A stretch of 5,642 bases of DNA from JACPSX01 sp035288405 [NCBI: bacterium] (GTDB lineage Bacteria; JACPSX01): NCBI GenBank assembly GCA_035288405.1, contig DATEAK010000269.1:1-5642 (forward strand), written 5' to 3'. Made by a program: the position numbers and the translations under genes. The notes under the pieces were generated by a model. That model was not told where the DNA came from and did not search any database. It saw nothing but the letters and a program-made list of their open reading frames with translations. Within the stretch, counting starts at the first letter, position 1. Each line of letters starts with the position of its first letter. This document shows, one piece after another, positions 1 to 5,642 of this stretch.

Positions 1-37
1 GGCGTCCTTGACGCCGCTGTCCACGGGGATTGTGCAG
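1..37 (-). pseudogene. Displaced 3'-end fragment of an aldolase/SDR gene
   Basis: Read on the minus strand these bases encode CTIPVDSGVKDA, nearly identical to the C-terminus of the intact aldolase/SDR protein (CTIPVDGGVKDA). The DNA matches 1558-1594 at 35 of 37 positions; the differences are at 18 (synonymous side of the pair is at 31; position 18 changes Gly to Ser in the conserved VDGG turn). The match stops at 38, and upstream in the same frame there are only four unrelated codons before a TAG at 49-51, so no gene body remains. The original stop codon would lie just outside the left edge. It is a remnant, not a functional gene. It could be the displaced original gene end after an insertion, or the tail of a decayed tandem copy. 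Confidence 0.75.
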
Positions 38-407
38 ATCAAGTCATTCTATTCCCCCCTTTTAGGGGATATTACCTCTCGCGGCCCGTTATTATCACGT
101 TTTTCACCACAGGGCACCTCACCCCGTCCCGACAACCCGGATTTTCGCTCCTTCCGAAGAGTTCCGAGGACAACCCGGATCATTGGACGGCTGACACCAG
201 GCAGAATATTACGCTATATCCCAACAGGCTGCCGCAAACCTTCCGTTCACCCTTCGACTGTGCTCAGGGCGAACGGAGGAAGTTCTGAATTTGCTGATGA
301 TCTTCCCTCCGTGGTGAGCCCGTCGAACCACGAAGCCGAATTTTTCAGGATCTTTCGAATGAACGTACCAAAGAGAAATAGGATCACAACAGCACTTCGT
401 GATCCTA
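38..407. other. Non-coding, repeat-bearing spacer downstream of fic
   Basis: I see no supportable gene in these 370 bases. The open frames crossing them are low-complexity translations with no recognisable motif, and one of them starts inside the displaced gene tail in antisense. The stretch contains a 12-bp exact direct repeat, GACAACCCGGAT, at 131-142 and 169-180, a small C4/G4 stem at 56-68, a hairpin repeat at 242-277, and an inverted repeat at 377-409 at the fic stop codon. It appears to be the non-coding flank of the fic segment that separates it from the displaced aldolase/SDR tail. Confidence 0.6.
242..277. repeat. Palindromic intergenic hairpin repeat
   Basis: Arms TCCGTTCACCCT (242-253) and AGGGCGAACGGA (266-277) pair at 11 of 12 positions around a 12-nt loop; the only mismatch is at 249/270. 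The core, CTGAGC-ACAGTCGAAGGG with GAACGG on the flank, resembles a short palindromic repeat often scattered between genes in environmental bacterial genomes. On the minus strand it reads as the familiar spurious peptide PFALSTVEG. The pairing is seen directly; the dispersed-repeat identity is from general knowledge and not checked. It lacks a T-run on either side, so it is not an obvious terminator. Confidence 0.5.
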
Positions 408-409
408 TT
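377..409 (-). terminator. Perfect 11-bp inverted repeat at the fic stop, possible terminator
   Basis: AATAGGATCAC (377-387) and GTGATCCTATT (399-409) are perfect reverse complements separated by 11 nt. The outer arm overlaps the fic TAA stop (408-410), a typical place for a transcript-ending hairpin. On the minus strand the sequence after the stem is only moderately T-rich (TTCTCTTTGG), so an intrinsic terminator is possible but not strong. A further copy of the arm, TGATCCTATT at 420-429, sits inside the last fic codons and can pair with the same partner, which suggests a repeat or binding site as an alternative role. Confidence 0.4.
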
Positions 410-1466
410 AATCGATCCATGATCCTATTCTCTCCCACTCCGCATCACGCCCCTTCCCGAGGCAACGAACCTTCTTTTGCTGTTTGAGATCCATAAGGGC
501 TCGCTTCAAAGTCGGGTAGCTCACCCCGGGACAGGCGCGCTGAAGCTCGCCGAACCGGAAACGGCTCGGCAGACGTTTGATGGTTTGCTGGACCATCTCC
601 CTCTTGGCACCTCTGGCCGTGGTGACTGTTCCGACCCGTTCCTCAAATTCTCTGTAAGCGGCAATAAGTGTCCCCAAGAAGTAGTTCCACCAGGGACGCA
701 AGTCGTGCTTGGCTTCGTGCCATTCCTGAGAGCTTTTCAAGAGCACTTCATAGTAGGTTTCTTTGCTTTCCTCGACAATCCGCTCCAGGCCGATGTAACG
801 GCCCACCTCGTAGCCAGCCTGGTAGAGCAAAAGGAGGGTCAGCAAGCGGCCAATTCTCCCGTTGCCATCCCAGAAAGGATGAATGCACTCGAAGTCGAAG
901 ACAAAGGAGGCAATCAAGAGAAGCGGCTCGGCTTGGCGGTCGTCGACGGCCCGGTGGTAGAGAGAGCATAGTTCCTTCATGAATTCTGGTGCTGCCAATG
1001 CCGAGACAGGACGGAAGCGGACGACCTGTCTTCCATCAGGGAGAATTTCCAGAATCGCGTTATCCTTCTCCTTCCACCGGCCACCCTTTTCCGAGGTGTG
1101 AGCGTACATCTGCCGGTGAAACTCAAGGATGAGCTTGGGATTCAGCGTCATGCGCTTTGCATTTGCGTGGATCTCGGCCAACACATCTCGATAGCCCGCC
1201 ACTTCCTCCTCGGAACGTCCTTTCGGTCTGGTTTTCTTCGTGACAATCGCTTCCAGCCGGTCTGCCGCGACAGTTATCCCCTCGATCCGGTTGGAAGACT
1301 CAACGCTCTGGACCACCGCCACGCGCTTTAAGGTTTCCAGGATCTCAGGTGATTGTTCCTGGTACAAGTTTTGACGGCCCCGGAACTCACCCAGAGCACG
1401 CACCATCATTAAAAGATTCTGGGAAATCGGTTGTTCCAGTAGGTATCCGTGCTCAAAAGAGCGCAT
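408..1466 (-). CDS. Fic family protein (probable AMP-transferase) with C-terminal winged helix
   Basis: This 352-residue protein carries the complete Fic catalytic motif HPFWDGNGRIGR at residues 196-207, with the catalytic His196 and the phosphate-binding GNGR loop intact. Fic enzymes usually transfer AMP from ATP to a hydroxyl side chain of a target protein. An inhibitory-helix motif of the (S/T)xxxE(G/N) type, S58-NRI-E62-G63, lies N-terminal to the Fic core, as in class II Fic proteins, where the Glu blocks productive ATP binding. A flap-like segment (QVVRFRPV, about 147-154) precedes the core. Residues about 285-345 look like a winged helix (FGELQRACPGVSYPTLKRALMDLKQQKKV). No signal peptide or membrane segment is seen, so it is probably cytoplasmic. 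The ATG has AAGGAG five bases upstream. The gene follows the aldolase/SDR stop by 79 nt and is flanked by a duplicated tail of that gene, which suggests it was acquired. Target unknown. Confidence 0.93.
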   Translation of the reverse strand: MRSFEHGYLLEQPISQNLLMMVRALGEFRGRQNLYQEQSPEILETLKRVAVVQSVESSNRIEGITVAADRLEAIVTKKTRPKGRSEEEVAGYRDVLAEIHANAKRMTLNPKLILEFHRQMYAHTSEKGGRWKEKDNAILEILPDGRQVVRFRPVSALAAPEFMKELCSLYHRAVDDRQAEPLLLIASFVFDFECIHPFWDGNGRIGRLLTLLLLYQAGYEVGRYIGLERIVEESKETYYEVLLKSSQEWHEAKHDLRPWWNYFLGTLIAAYREFEERVGTVTTARGAKREMVQQTIKRLPSRFRFGELQRACPGVSYPTLKRALMDLKQQKKVRCLGKGRDAEWERIGSWID

Positions 1467-1471
1467 TTCGG

Positions 1472-1477
1472 CTCCTT
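1472..1477 (-). promoter_or_regulatory. Ribosome binding site of the Fic gene
   Basis: The minus strand reads AAGGAG, then CCGAA, then the ATG at 1466-1464. The strong match and five-base spacing fix this start. No convincing -35/-10 pair was found in the 79-nt gap upstream, so the gene may be read through from the aldolase/SDR gene. Confidence 0.8.
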
Positions 1478-1545
1478 GTGGGTTGAAGGTTCACCGGCTT
1501 TGAGTGGAGGGGTCTGATCGCGGCCCGGGATTTCATTGGAATAGG

Positions 1546-3612
1546 TCACCTCGGGAAGGCGTCCTTGACGCCGCCGTCCACGGGGATCGTGCAGCCGGTG
1601 GTCTTGGCGGAAGCGTCGGACGCCAGAAAGCAAACTGCCTCTGCTACATCTTCAGCGGTGACCCGGGTGCGCAGGAGATTTCTCTGACGGTAGAATTCTT
1701 CCAGCTCCTCGGGCTTAATGCCGTGGGCCTTGGCGCGGCGCTCCCTCACCTCGGGGTTCCAGAGCTTGCTCCCTTCGAAGATCGCATCGGGATTGACCAG
1801 GTTCACCCGGATCCCAAGCTCCGCCGCTTCCAGAGCCAGAACCTTGGCAAGCTGGGTCTCGGCGGCCTTGGCGGCGCTGTACGCGGCGAAATCTTTCCCC
1901 GGCGAGAAAACGTTCTTCGATGAAACAAACACAAAGCTCCCGCCCAGGTTCTGAACCTTCAAGATCTTGAGTGCTTCCCGGGCCACCAGGAAATGCCCCG
2001 TCGCGTTCACGGCCAAGCTGCGGTTCCAGTCTTCCAGACTCAACGAATCGATGGGATCCACGTGAGCCAGGCCCGCATTGGAGATGATGAGATCGATCCC
2101 CCCGTAGGTAAGCACCGCTTTTCGGAACCCCTTATTCACGGAAGTCTCGTCGGTCACATCCATCGGCACAGCCACCGCTCTCCCCCAGCCGTGCTTCCGG
2201 ATGATTTCTTCCGCCAGGCTTTGCACCCCGGCCTCATCAATGTCCGTGACCACCAGGTGAGCTCCGGCTGCAGCGAGGCGGTGGGCGATGGCCCTGCCAA
2301 TGCCGCTGGCCGCACCGGTCACAAATGCAATCCGGCGGGAGAGAGGAGCTTCCGGAGGAGCCAGTGTGAGCTTGTAGAGCTCCAGGGGCCAGTATTCCAT
2401 GTCGTAAATTTCTTTCTCGGTGATGGAAGAATACTTCCCGAGAGACGCTGCTCCCTTGATCACCGAGATCGTGTGCACGTAAATGTCCCGGGCCATGCAA
2501 GCCTCCAGAAGACTTTTTCCAGTGGCCAACAATCCGATTCCCGGGATCAGGAGAACACGCGGATAAGGATCGTGAGCAGAAACTTCAGGCATCCGGTTGC
2601 GTTCAACGAAGGCCAGATAATTTTGGGCGTACTCTTCCAGCAACCGGGGAATGCTTTCTTTGAGTGCCTCGACACTTCTCGGGCTGGTGAGCGGAACGAA
2701 GAGAGGTTTCCCTTTCGTGCGCAGCACATGGTCCGGAGTCGCGGGGCCGATTGGGGAGAGGGCTCCCGCTTCTTCGGAGTTCACGAACTCCAGAATCTCC
2801 GGGCGGTCATCGTGGAGAAGGATCATGCGCTGCCGGCGGCTCATAGCCCCGCGCAGCACGGGAGCCAGTGCCGCCACATGTTCCCGGCGCCAGCCGGATT
2901 TATTTTCCAGCGCTGGCAGCACGGTCAACGGAGAACGCTTCTTGAGCCCCTGCTCGATGTACTGCTCGGCCCGGCTCACGATCTCGATCGTGCGATTGTA
3001 GGCTTCCTTGGCGCTTTCCCCCCAGGTGAAGAGCCCGTGCTTCTCCAGCACCGCACCCGGTGCGCCGGGAGACTTACCAACTTCTCCGGCTACCAGCTTG
3101 GCAAGCCGGAAGCCGGGCTGCACGTAGGGGATGAAGACCATTTCTTTTCCAAGAGCCTCTCGCACCACGCTGCGGCCGTTGTCGAGGTTCGTGAGAGACA
3201 GAATCGCGTCGGCGTGAGTATGGTAAATGTGAGGATAGGGGAGAAAGGCATGCAGTAGGGTTTCAATGGAAGGGCGGGCCGCTTGAGGCTCCATGAGCGT
3301 GTGGGCGAGGTACTCGACCATCTCTTCGTCGCTCATCTCTTCCCGCTCCAGGAGGGGGAGCACATCGTCCAGGCGCACACCGGGAAACTGCCGGGCTTCG
3401 ATGGTCTTGAGATCGGAGCCGCTCCCCTTGATGCGCAGCACCCGGGTTTGCCTGCCCCGGAAGTCGGTCTCGTCCAGCTTCATGCCGGTATTGCCCCCGC
3501 CCCAGATCACCAGGCTCTCCTCCTGGCCGATCAAACGGGAAGCATAAAGGAGCAGGTCCAGGCCCTGCAGTTTTTGAGCCTGCTCATCGGACCAGCGGTT
3601 TTCCACAGTCAT
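1546..3612 (-). CDS. Bifunctional class II aldolase / short-chain dehydrogenase (rhamnulose-1-phosphate aldolase type)
   Basis: With the ATG at 3612 the protein has 688 residues, the usual size for this fused family. The N-terminal class II aldolase/adducin domain (about 15-240) has WGGGN (37-41), KGSGSDLKTI (62-71), the metal-binding HTHAD (His131, His133) and a third likely ligand, His192, in EKHGLFTWG. A linker leads to a C-terminal Rossmann dehydrogenase (about 425-688) with TGAASGIG (432-439), Asp457 at the end of strand 2 (suggesting NAD), NAG (512-514) and the catalytic set Asn536, Ser565, Tyr578, Lys582. The C-terminus PVDGGVKDAFPR is family-typical. Characterised relatives split L-rhamnulose 1-phosphate into dihydroxyacetone phosphate and L-lactaldehyde and oxidise the aldehyde; the substrate here is not proven and no other rhamnose gene is visible. 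The ATG has a close GGAG two bases upstream; an in-frame TTG at 3639, abutting the corA stop, would add nine residues. Probably cytoplasmic and co-transcribed with corA. Confidence 0.92.
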   Translation of the reverse strand: MTVENRWSDEQAQKLQGLDLLLYASRLIGQEESLVIWGGGNTGMKLDETDFRGRQTRVLRIKGSGSDLKTIEARQFPGVRLDDVLPLLEREEMSDEEMVEYLAHTLMEPQAARPSIETLLHAFLPYPHIYHTHADAILSLTNLDNGRSVVREALGKEMVFIPYVQPGFRLAKLVAGEVGKSPGAPGAVLEKHGLFTWGESAKEAYNRTIEIVSRAEQYIEQGLKKRSPLTVLPALENKSGWRREHVAALAPVLRGAMSRRQRMILLHDDRPEILEFVNSEEAGALSPIGPATPDHVLRTKGKPLFVPLTSPRSVEALKESIPRLLEEYAQNYLAFVERNRMPEVSAHDPYPRVLLIPGIGLLATGKSLLEACMARDIYVHTISVIKGAASLGKYSSITEKEIYDMEYWPLELYKLTLAPPEAPLSRRIAFVTGAASGIGRAIAHRLAAAGAHLVVTDIDEAGVQSLAEEIIRKHGWGRAVAVPMDVTDETSVNKGFRKAVLTYGGIDLIISNAGLAHVDPIDSLSLEDWNRSLAVNATGHFLVAREALKILKVQNLGGSFVFVSSKNVFSPGKDFAAYSAAKAAETQLAKVLALEAAELGIRVNLVNPDAIFEGSKLWNPEVRERRAKAHGIKPEELEEFYRQRNLLRTRVTAEDVAEAVCFLASDASAKTTGCTIPVDGGVKDAFPR
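1558..1594 (-). repeat. Direct repeat: intact copy of the gene tail found at 1-37
   Basis: This is the 3' end of the intact aldolase/SDR gene and is repeated in the same orientation at 1-37 with two substitutions (1575 versus 18, 1588 versus 31). Similarity ends abruptly at 1594/37. Its leftward extent beyond position 1 cannot be seen. The two copies bracket the fic gene and its non-coding flanks, at an offset of 1557 bp. Confidence 0.85.
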
Positions 3613-3639
3613 TTCTCCAGTCGGTACGGGTTCAGGCAA

Positions 3640-4716
3640 CTACAACCACTTCTTGCGCCGGAAGTAGAAAAGGAACGCCAGCGCCACCGCCGCCATCAGC
3701 CCCAGAGCCATCGGGTACCCCCAGACCCAGTTCAGCTCGGGCATGTTCCAGGGGCTCTTGGCGGTGTTGAAGTTCATCCCGTAGATCCCGGCAATGAAGC
3801 TCAGAGGAATAAAGAACGTCGTGATGATCGTCAGCACCTTCATGATCTCGTTCAAGCGGTTGCTCATGCTGGACAGGTAAATGTCCATCAGGCCGGTGCC
3901 GATTTCCCGATAGGTTTCCAGGATGTCCAGGATGCGGATGGCGTGATCATAGCAATCCCGCAGGTAAACCCGAGTTTGTGATGAAATCAGAGGCGACTCC
4001 TCCCGCAACAGGCTGTTGATCGCATCCCGCTCGGGCCAGATGGCACGCCGCAGGTTCAGAAGTTCCCGCCGGGTCTGGTGGATTTTCTGCAGGGTTTCCC
4101 GGCTTGGTTTTTCGGCCACCTGATCCTCGAGGTCTTCGATTCGTTCCCCCAGGGATTCCAGGACCGGGAAAAAGCCGTCTACGAGAGTGTCGATCAAGGC
4201 ATAGGCAAGATAGTCCGCTCCCGAGCGGCGAATCGTCCCCCGATTGCTGCGAATCCTCTCCCGCACCGGATCAAAAACATCGCCGGGTCTTTCCTGAATC
4301 GTCACCAGAAAGTTCTCCCCCAGGAACAGGCTCACCTGCTCGAACTCAAGCCGATCCTGCAGGGCAACGCGGATGAAGACCAGGAAGTGGTACTTCTCGT
4401 AGTCTTCCACTTTGGGGCGCTGGGAAACGTGCAGGACATCTTCGAGAGCCAGCGGGTGGAGATGGAAGACTTCCCCGAGCCTGGAGAGGAACTCCAGATT
4501 GTGAATGCCGTCCAGGTGGATCCAGGTCACCCGCTTCTTGCCCAGGTACGGGAGACAATCTTCCACACTGGACAGCACTTTCTCCTCGAGCGCCTCCTGG
4601 TCATATGAGAACAGGGTTATGGAGACGGGCACCTCAGGAACAACCGCGGGAGGAACGAGGGTTCCCGGGGAAGTTCCCGGCGGATGGTAGCGGTGCTTCC
4701 AGATCTGCATGGTCAT
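3640..4716 (-). CDS. corA: CorA-type magnesium/cobalt transport protein
   Basis: This 358-residue protein (ATG at 4716) matches the CorA family, homopentameric inner-membrane channels for Mg2+ and Co2+. The long cytoplasmic N-terminal domain (about 30-285) includes the conserved HPLALEDVLH segment (87-96) and the acidic helical stretch VLESLGERIEDLEDQV (about 185-200). Two C-terminal membrane helices (about 292-310 and 331-351) bracket the signature YGMN (312-315) and the periplasmic-loop residues MPEL. The tail FRRKKWL is basic, as expected for the cytoplasmic end. A TTG start two codons earlier is possible, but the Shine-Dalgarno AAAGGA touches that TTG and sits six bases from the ATG, so the ATG is preferred. 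The N-terminus is Pro-rich (HPPGTSPGTLVPP). The gene ends 27 nt before the aldolase/SDR ATG, which suggests an operon. Confidence 0.95.
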   Translation of the reverse strand: MTMQIWKHRYHPPGTSPGTLVPPAVVPEVPVSITLFSYDQEALEEKVLSSVEDCLPYLGKKRVTWIHLDGIHNLEFLSRLGEVFHLHPLALEDVLHVSQRPKVEDYEKYHFLVFIRVALQDRLEFEQVSLFLGENFLVTIQERPGDVFDPVRERIRSNRGTIRRSGADYLAYALIDTLVDGFFPVLESLGERIEDLEDQVAEKPSRETLQKIHQTRRELLNLRRAIWPERDAINSLLREESPLISSQTRVYLRDCYDHAIRILDILETYREIGTGLMDIYLSSMSNRLNEIMKVLTIITTFFIPLSFIAGIYGMNFNTAKSPWNMPELNWVWGYPMALGLMAAVALAFLFYFRRKKWL

Positions 4717-4722
4717 GGACAA

Positions 4723-4728
4723 TCCTTT
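4723..4728 (-). promoter_or_regulatory. Ribosome binding site of corA
   Basis: The minus strand reads AAAGGA, then TTGTCC, then ATG at 4716-4714. Six-base spacing favours this ATG over the TTG that directly follows the AAAGGA. Confidence 0.7.
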
Positions 4729-4758
4729 GAAAATCTCCCGGTTTCCTCAAGTCCGGCT

Positions 4759-4787
4759 AGTTTATTATGGGGGGGAACCTGAATCAA
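4759..4787 (-). promoter_or_regulatory. corA: Candidate corA promoter with a C7 spacer tract
   Basis: On the minus strand TTGATT (4787-4782, four of six bases of the -35 consensus) is followed after 17 nt by TAAACT (4764-4759, four of six bases of the -10 consensus). The spacer holds seven consecutive C (plus-strand G, 4769-4775). A better -10 match, CATAAT at 4769-4764, is only 12 nt from the -35 candidate. Placement about 40 nt before the corA start is suitable, but the boxes are weak. Confidence 0.35.
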
Positions 4788-4828
4788 CCCCGATCCGAAA
4801 AAAATCGACGGGCAGCATATCGAAACAC

Positions 4829-4858
4829 GGAATGAGTTATAATAGAAACTCCAATTCC
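4829..4858. promoter_or_regulatory. Imperfect dyad overlapping the ligase -10 box, possible operator
   Basis: The left arm GGAATGAGTT (4829-4838) is the reverse complement of AACTC (4847-4851) plus ATTCC (4854-4858), with a two-base CA interruption in the right arm and an 8-nt centre. The dyad covers the TATAAT box at 4838-4843. A protein bound here would block that promoter, so an operator is plausible. The symmetry is visible; the function is inference. Confidence 0.35.
4838..4843 (+). promoter_or_regulatory. -10 box of the divergent CoA-ligase gene
   Basis: TATAAT matches the sigma-70 -10 consensus exactly and lies about 58 bases before the ATG at 4901, leaving a leader of roughly 50 nt. 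The -35 position (around 4815-4820, GCATAT) is a poor match, so transcription may need an activator or rely on the -10 element. Confidence 0.5.
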
Positions 4859-4887
4859 CCAAAGAGAAGTTCGTTCCAATTGCCTCC

Positions 4888-4893
4888 AAAGGG
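4888..4893 (+). promoter_or_regulatory. Ribosome binding site of the CoA-ligase gene
   Basis: AAAGGG is followed by seven bases and the ATG at 4901. An in-frame GTG at 4895 lies almost against this site and is therefore less likely to be the start. Confidence 0.6.
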
Positions 4894-4900
4894 CGTGATC

Positions 4901-5642
4901 ATGAACAAGTCTATTTTTAGCGAATCCTCTCTCAAAAGCAAATATTGGAACCCGTACACGGAAACCATGCCGCGGGAAGAGGTCAACGCTCTGCACTTGA
5001 AGCGAATTCAAAAACTGATCCGCTATGCCTACACGCATGTCCCTTTGTACCGCAACCTCTACAACCGGGTGGGTTTGAAACCCGAAGACGTCCGCACCCT
5101 CGAAGACTTCGATCGCCTGGTCCCCACCATCGACAAAAAGGAACTGCTCGATGCCCAGTCAAAGAATCCCCCTTGGGGGGAGGCGGCTGCGCTCAGCGAG
5201 GACGCCCTTCTGTACCGCTACCAGACTTCGGGCTCTACGGGGGTTCCCCTGGTCATCCCCATCTCCTACTACGACTCGGTCCGCTACGGGGACCAGTGGG
5301 CTTACGGTTTCTGGGGAGTGGGACTACGCCCCGGGCATTCTTTTTATTTTGCGTTTCCCTGGGGGACCTTTATCGCTTTCTGGAGCGCCTACTGGGGAGT
5401 CCGTAGAATCGGAGGAACCGTCTATTCCGGAGGGGGAGCGTCCACGGAGATGCGCCTGAAGCAGATTCTGGAATACAAGCCCACGGTGTTCCTCTCCACT
5501 CCCACCTACGCCCTCTACGTAGCGGAAAAGGCCAAAGAGGCGGGAATCAACCTGAGGGAGATCGGAATCAAGGTTATGTATCTTTCCGGGGAGCCCGGGG
5601 TCAGCATCCCCAGCACCCGTCAGGCCATCGAGGAAGCCTGGG
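4901..5642 (+). CDS. Phenylacetate--CoA ligase family protein (PaaK-like), 3' truncated by window edge
   Basis: The frame is open from ATG at 4901 to the right edge, giving 247 residues of an enzyme that usually has about 430. It belongs to the ANL adenylate-forming family: such enzymes activate a carboxylic acid with ATP to an acyl-AMP and then form the CoA thioester. The N-terminus (LKRIQKLIRYAYTHVPLYRNLYNRVGL, about 33-59) and the YRYQTSGSTGVPLVIP segment (105-120), containing the ATP-phosphate-binding loop TSGSTG, are typical of PaaK. STPTYALYVAE (199-209) and SGEPG (229-233) followed by SIPSTRQAIEEAW are also typical. The rest of the adenylation core and the C-terminal lid domain are outside the window. 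The true substrate may be phenylacetate or another aryl or short acid. It is transcribed divergently from corA across a 184-bp gap and no aromatic-degradation partner is visible. Confidence 0.93.
   Translation, partial: MNKSIFSESSLKSKYWNPYTETMPREEVNALHLKRIQKLIRYAYTHVPLYRNLYNRVGLKPEDVRTLEDFDRLVPTIDKKELLDAQSKNPPWGEAAALSEDALLYRYQTSGSTGVPLVIPISYYDSVRYGDQWAYGFWGVGLRPGHSFYFAFPWGTFIAFWSAYWGVRRIGGTVYSGGGASTEMRLKQILEYKPTVFLSTPTYALYVAEKAKEAGINLREIGIKVMYLSGEPGVSIPSTRQAIEEAW

Follow-up and report, generated by a model that had tools for sequence, protein, structure and literature searches.

The window analysed here, a stretch of 5,642 nucleotides from the bacterium JACPSX01 sp035288405 (assembly GCA_035288405.1, contig DATEAK010000269.1, positions 1 to 5,642), carries a gene for a Fic family protein placed between two copies of the 3′ end of a bifunctional aldolase/short-chain dehydrogenase (SDR) gene, one belonging to the intact gene and the other displaced and decaying. 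Fic family enzymes are used by bacteria as toxins and phage defences. The explanation that we favour, with a probability of about 0.5, is that a small toxin or defence cassette inserted here with duplication of the end of the neighbouring gene, and that this cassette represents one of a recurring class in the lineage. The same layout was observed around several unrelated toxin-type modules of the only close relative found, a groundwater bacterium known from a Candidatus Tectomicrobia metagenome-assembled genome (MAG; L029), in which direct repeats were enriched around toxin-family genes.

The duplicated end of the aldolase/SDR gene

The features that define the arrangement are the following:

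1 to 37, minus strand: displaced, decaying copy of the 3′ end of the aldolase/SDR gene
408 to 1466, minus strand: fic, encoding a Fic family protein of 352 aa
1546 to 3639, minus strand: bifunctional aldolase/short-chain dehydrogenase gene of 697 aa, the putative target gene (TIGR02632, 759.5 bits, cut-off 567.75)
1558 to 1594, minus strand: copy of the repeat within the C-terminal codons of the intact aldolase/SDR gene

The initial annotation, made from the letters of the window, had described positions 1-37 and 1558-1594 as direct repeats identical at 35 of 37 positions, and pairwise comparison within the window confirmed it, since 100 shuffles of the remaining window (first-order Markov) gave a best score of 23/37 for the 37-mer. 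Its reverse complement reached at most 21/37 in the real sequence. The homology presented a sharp boundary at 37/1594, outside of which only 15 of 63 positions were identical. The minus-strand reading of the right copy gave the end of the aldolase/SDR protein (GCTIPVDGGVKDAFPR, followed by the stop codon), and that of the left copy E*NDLICTIPVDSGVKDA, with an in-frame TAG four codons ahead of the homology and a Gly to Ser replacement (VDGG to VDSG) at a glycine that was invariant in the 35 listed homologous C-termini. This reading bore out the claim that only the right copy is joined to a gene body, the left one being a tail of the aldolase/SDR gene that is displaced and decaying. This tail runs off the start of the window, and the repeat may extend to the left of position 1.

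Whether the repeat could instead be a motif scattered across the genome, as the initial annotation had allowed, was answered in part: no site with three or fewer mismatches was present in the relative, whose own aldolase 3′ end is unassembled. A paralogous SDR gene had also been considered as the source of the tail, and was disfavoured by this same count together with the in-frame TAG. Moreover, a second short direct repeat was found near both inner ends of the segment, at 79-93 and 1518-1532 (13/15, with 10 bp exact), an exact length reached in 3 of 300 shuffles. A search for terminal inverted repeats at the ends of the insert gave a longest exact match of 7 bp, which was equalled in 81 of 300 shuffles.

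Two alternatives to an insertion bear directly on this repeat. First, a tandem duplication of the gene end and its surroundings, followed by deletion, could have left the tail, with fic arriving independently and short terminus duplications being common in the lineage. What argues against this account is that homology in the window stops within the gene end, and that neither aldolase homology past the repeat in the adjoining segment nor any further aldolase remnant alongside was detected. Second, the first bases of the contig could belong to a strain variant or result from a misjoin rather than derive from the far side of fic, and the position of the repeat exactly at the window start, together with two comparable copies also placed at contig ends in the relative (L137 and L176), is consistent with such an assembly edge. 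However, the two copies are not identical (2 of the 37 positions differ) and continue into non-gene sequence, and most of the cases in the relative lie inside contigs, making an artefact of this kind very unlikely.

Terminus copies around toxin-type modules in the relative

The relative matched the window with 84% protein identity over aldolase residues 3-289 and 88% DNA identity over positions 2774-4761. Its contig stops inside the aldolase gene, the remainder of which was searched for in this genome and not found, and the Fic protein had no match there at E ≤ 1e-10. The succession of an intact gene terminus, a small toxin-type module and a displaced copy of the terminus, as seen in the window, nevertheless recurs in this genome with ParE, AbiE, HicB, PIN and PemK modules. 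For example, at L090 an exact repeat of 54 bp covers the end of a methyltransferase gene with its stop codon and the next 12 bases; its two copies start 860 bp apart, the displaced one downstream, and enclose an Unstab_antitox antitoxin and a ParE toxin. At L130 (2646-9829), a tandem array was composed of a GATase1-like gene end, an AbiE-type pair (AbiEi_2 and an AbiEii-like protein just below its cut-off), a copy of the gene end of 64 bp and 89% identity, a HicB module together with a UPF0175 protein, and finally another, longer copy of the gene end. A PemK module was associated with a symporter gene end (L194), a PIN module with a terminus copy at a 5′ end (L071), and a PIN gene with one for a ribbon-helix-helix protein (L179). 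Similarly, L151 (881-2966) has nested terminus copies that set apart UPF0158, DUF2283 and one small unknown gene, next to a DUF4143 gene; the end of the DUF4143 gene lies beside UPF0158, and the copy of the UPF0158 5′ end past the DUF2283 gene.

Two further observations were made at such loci. A BrnT/BrnA pair directly follows the displaced gene end at L090 (15669-16205) and is perhaps another stacked toxin-antitoxin insertion. At L137 (3517-4587), the end of a small gene preceding a Cas4 gene was exactly repeated at the very end of the contig, which may be an assembly edge; by our own reading, Cas1 and Cas2 are presumably also encoded there.

The generality of the layout was assessed in a survey of gene ends covering 1123 open reading frames (ORFs) of at least 120 aa, the window included, in which contigs with more than 30% N were skipped and rows of long similarity (15 downstream and 16 upstream) were excluded because they were regarded as gene duplications; the accompanying survey of short direct repeats listed pairs with a summed length of up to 250 bp. 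Copies of 3′ ends were found downstream in 17 cases and upstream in 3, copies of 5′ ends upstream in 6 and downstream in 7, and mid-gene copies in 16 and 12. Leaving the window out, terminus copies fell on the side that matches the copied end in 22 rows and on the opposite side in 9 (p 0.015); the rows are not all independent, and the 22 correspond to about 19 events by manual grouping. The aligned copies ranged from 34 to 293 bp and from 68 to 91% identity, as expected for events of different age. Comparison of 13 inserts revealed common sequence only in the form of 20-44 bp matches, which for the window fall in a dispersed repeat, and inspection of six inserts by eye yielded no common junction motif.

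In a test centred on toxin genes, unique direct repeats were sought within 3 kb on either side of each gene. The DNA covered comprised 140 contigs from the relative, each for up to its first 20 kb (about 1.29 Mb excluding N, of a total of about 2.9 Mb), and also served as the background control. On this DNA, searches for PIN, ParE, PemK and NTP_transf_2 provided 25 testable matches at 23 distinct loci, C116 and C74 being matched by two families each and counted once. The PIN match C87:14-364 is not among the 25, the ABC_tran match C57:649-732 was left out as it shares the frame of C57:1192-1362, and the L130, L151 and L194 modules stem from the survey of gene ends, not from the family searches. 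Flanking repeats were present at 10 of the 25 matches, distributed as PIN 5/11, ParE 3/5, PemK 1/3 (the three including a match below the family cut-off at C116) and NTP_transf_2 1/6 (the six including a match at C78 within a 987-aa frame, probably no toxin), and at 9 of the 23 loci. This proportion exceeded that of random places (17/300; Fisher p 1.3e-5), of ABC_tran matches (0/21, two of them below the family cut-off; p 0.0012), of small ORFs (40/314, a control that still includes toxin genes and spurious ORFs; p 0.0023) and of large ORFs (7/250; p 3e-7). The fic gene of the window also scored positive.

These counts bear on the tandem duplication introduced above. It draws support from the proportion of flanked small ORFs and from inserts that likewise have terminus copies around them although no toxin gene was recognised inside, and it leaves unexplained the excess of toxin-family loci over every control tried, so that we consider it rather unlikely as the origin of the window's tail.

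Insertion and its alternatives

A further alternative is that an integrase-driven element went in at the 3′ end of the gene, supplied a replacement end and subsequently lost its integrase, the segment being what is left of it, comparable to a cis-mobilizable element (CIME). The direct repeats of a gene end that bound the segment are in accordance with it, and one comparable case in the relative, L100 (5308-9216), in which 172 bp of a gene end are copied, contains a Phage_integrase fragment (45.3 bits). This is the sole comparable case with a trace of a recombinase, which must once have been present in at least one of these inserts. An HTH_17 protein in another insert (L090, 17016-17462) points in the same direction. 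Because of the L100 fragment, decayed integrase elements are kept as a live rival for some of the cases or for the window itself. Conversely, the window holds no integrase by its ORF list and by profile searches, in agreement with the initial annotation for the segment, and the cases in the relative involve a different gene each time, both 5′ and 3′ ends, copies of very different length and almost no common sequence. The integrative element that the initial annotation had envisaged at a gene's 3′ end thus finds a counterpart in L100 and fits the remaining cases less well, and as an account of the window we give it a low probability. The other option raised there, a very small passenger cassette, was strengthened by analogy with the Tectomicrobia relative, where the same layout recurs, the residue of a decayed integrase element being a less probable reading of the same segment.

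In the insertion that we favour, the segment from 38 to about 1557, consisting of the Fic gene and a terminator-like stem, would have been placed directly behind the aldolase/SDR gene, and the event would have duplicated the last bases of this gene, which would have stayed whole, a decaying tail being left on the far side. The ParE, AbiE, HicB, PIN and PemK modules between an intact terminus and a displaced copy would be members of the same class as the Fic module, proposed here as terminus-duplicating toxin cassettes. In favour of this explanation are the repeat with its sharp boundary, the decay of the left copy, the recurrence and enrichment observed in the relative, and the Fic protein itself, which is SoFic-like, has homologues of nearly full length on a plasmid and in a phage, and had no match in the relative at E ≤ 1e-10. 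We infer insertion, rather than duplication, at the window locus, and host recombination would most likely do the work, either by means of a circle carrying the module and the gene end that integrates by one crossover in the gene end, or by repair with template switching that copies the gene end twice. Since the inserts share only short matches and the copies vary, a process that duplicates any terminus at hand is favoured over one integrase acting at one attachment (att) site.

Several results weigh against this explanation. The window starts inside the repeat, so that the outer neighbour and the empty site lie beyond it, and the relative is devoid of the 3′ half of the aldolase gene. A recognised toxin-family gene was present in only 7 of the about 19 events (L071, L088, L090, L125, L130, L179 and L194), Pfam having been applied to 30 ORFs of the relative; other inserts hold the Phage_integrase fragment (L100), an Aldolase_II gene (L111) or an NMT1 gene (L190), several hold nothing recognised, and some rows of terminus copies run antisense or represent an event already counted. 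Among the nine flanked loci, four are doubtful, since the repeats lie in noncoding or unclear sequence at C73 (two loci) and C130, and at the end of a contig at C113; once these four positives were removed, 5 of 19 loci were flanked (p 0.006 against random places). Outside the lineage, seven Fic loci of plasmids or phages included only one with a flanking direct repeat (31 bp), and among nine toxin-antitoxin loci of E. coli K-12 only dinJ-yafQ was positive, by means of several repeats next to rayT, which we take to be repetitive extragenic palindromic (REP)-type elements. The pattern rests on one MAG and the window, and is so far shown only in this lineage. Because the outer flank lies outside the window, all three alternatives (tandem duplication, decay of an integrase element, assembly edge) are retained.

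To our knowledge, the spread of small recombinase-less toxin-antitoxin modules and of single-gene defence modules between chromosomes is poorly explained, and the layout described here hints at how toxin-type genes could settle beside other genes without breaking them. If the favoured explanation is true, the tolerance of these insertions would be explained, because duplication of the terminus leaves the target gene whole; the duplicated, decaying terminus would be a footprint by which insertions could be found and, from the decay of the displaced copy, dated; and they would be testable through empty sites and excised circles. A more speculative extension, which we consider unlikely, is that in this lineage toxin-antitoxin and defence genes travel as recombinase-less mini-cassettes, which carry the terminus of their neighbour as an address; the two copies would recombine to release a circle, whose terminus would direct its reinsertion beside the same gene of another cell, with that gene always intact.

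Known systems and the content of the segment

The closest known systems are the ssrA islands of Dehalococcoides and the cis-mobilizable elements (PMC3146451, PMC5704250), which resemble the window in comprising a segment between a gene end and its direct repeat, and resemble the present cases in that some are without an integration module (15 of the ssrA islands; PMC3146451) and are stacked in tandem. They differ in the use of one target gene and one shared 20-bp repeat, whereas here the gene and the repeat change with each locus and 5′ ends are involved as well. Direct repeats at both ends, one of them being the end of the target gene, and the absence of integration or transfer genes characterize CIMEs; the window has such repeats, with the aldolase gene end as one of the two, and fic as the only gene recognised between them. 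The microcin H47 island of E. coli (PMC3191183, PMC5426353) is likewise a small island between imperfect direct repeats without a recombinase of its own, which excises with host functions and without RecA; it differs in being a 13 kb microcin system. The window protein shares the Fic domain and a SoFic profile match with SoFic-type proteins (PADLOC SoFic; PMC12249575), which that source describes with a downstream AS1 antitoxin gene, and differs in scoring far below the NCBIfam SoFic equivalog cut-off (56.3 against 550 bits). Chromosomal toxin-antitoxin modules (ParE, PIN, PemK, HicB, AbiE) are what the comparable inserts of the relative carry, and differ in that the inserts here are flanked by copies of the terminus of a neighbouring gene. 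As judged from titles and the beginnings of abstracts, no report of toxin or Fic modules bounded by such copies was found among the records listed by the literature searches.

The Fic protein contains the Fic domain (PF02661, 68.2 bits, cut-off 24) and, at residue 196, the HPFx(D/E)GNGR motif of the Fic/Doc family in the form HPFWDGNGRIGR. Upstream of this motif it carries SNRIEG, which we take to be the inhibitory-helix motif. It matched the PADLOC SoFic profile at 1.9e-40, and its best solved relative by sequence was 8uqu (7.9e-103). Homologues of nearly full length were found in a plasmid (47.9% identity) and a phage (39.3%), and distant Fic matches (21-29% identity) in 3 of the 12 genomes searched, the relative not being among them. 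At 34 distant aldolase loci with downstream sequence, in some cases little of it, the best copy of the gene end reached 24/37, near chance, and no Fic motif was found at 35 distant aldolase loci.

The rest of the segment between the copies presents these features:

38 to 407, no strand assigned: non-coding part of the putative inserted segment, without aldolase homology past the repeat
about 216 to 357, no strand assigned: copy of a dispersed intergenic repeat, which accounts for 38 (partial) of the window's 41 matches in the related genome
377 to 409, minus strand: terminator-like stem-loop with perfect 11-bp arms, overlapping the fic stop codon

The claim that only fic and non-coding repeats lie between the copies held, fic being the sole gene recognised; the three other ORFs scanned there, which overlap 38-407, had no match in Pfam. 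Searches with Rfam (at the gathering threshold) and ARAGORN returned nothing, positions 1-407 had no match in plasmids, and viral contigs searched with the Fic protein, the aldolase and the repeat provided neither a relative nor a match. Terminator-like sites were not commoner in 1-1700 than expected by chance (2 found against 2.3 in shuffles). An 18-nt pattern (131-148) matched 11 viral contigs, each of them exact over 21 nt at 130-150, and was taken as one chance match because it lies in a long phage ORF in L054 to which all 11 are similar at that place. Finally, the third-position GC content of fic was 0.654, against 0.725-0.773 in three neighbouring genes.

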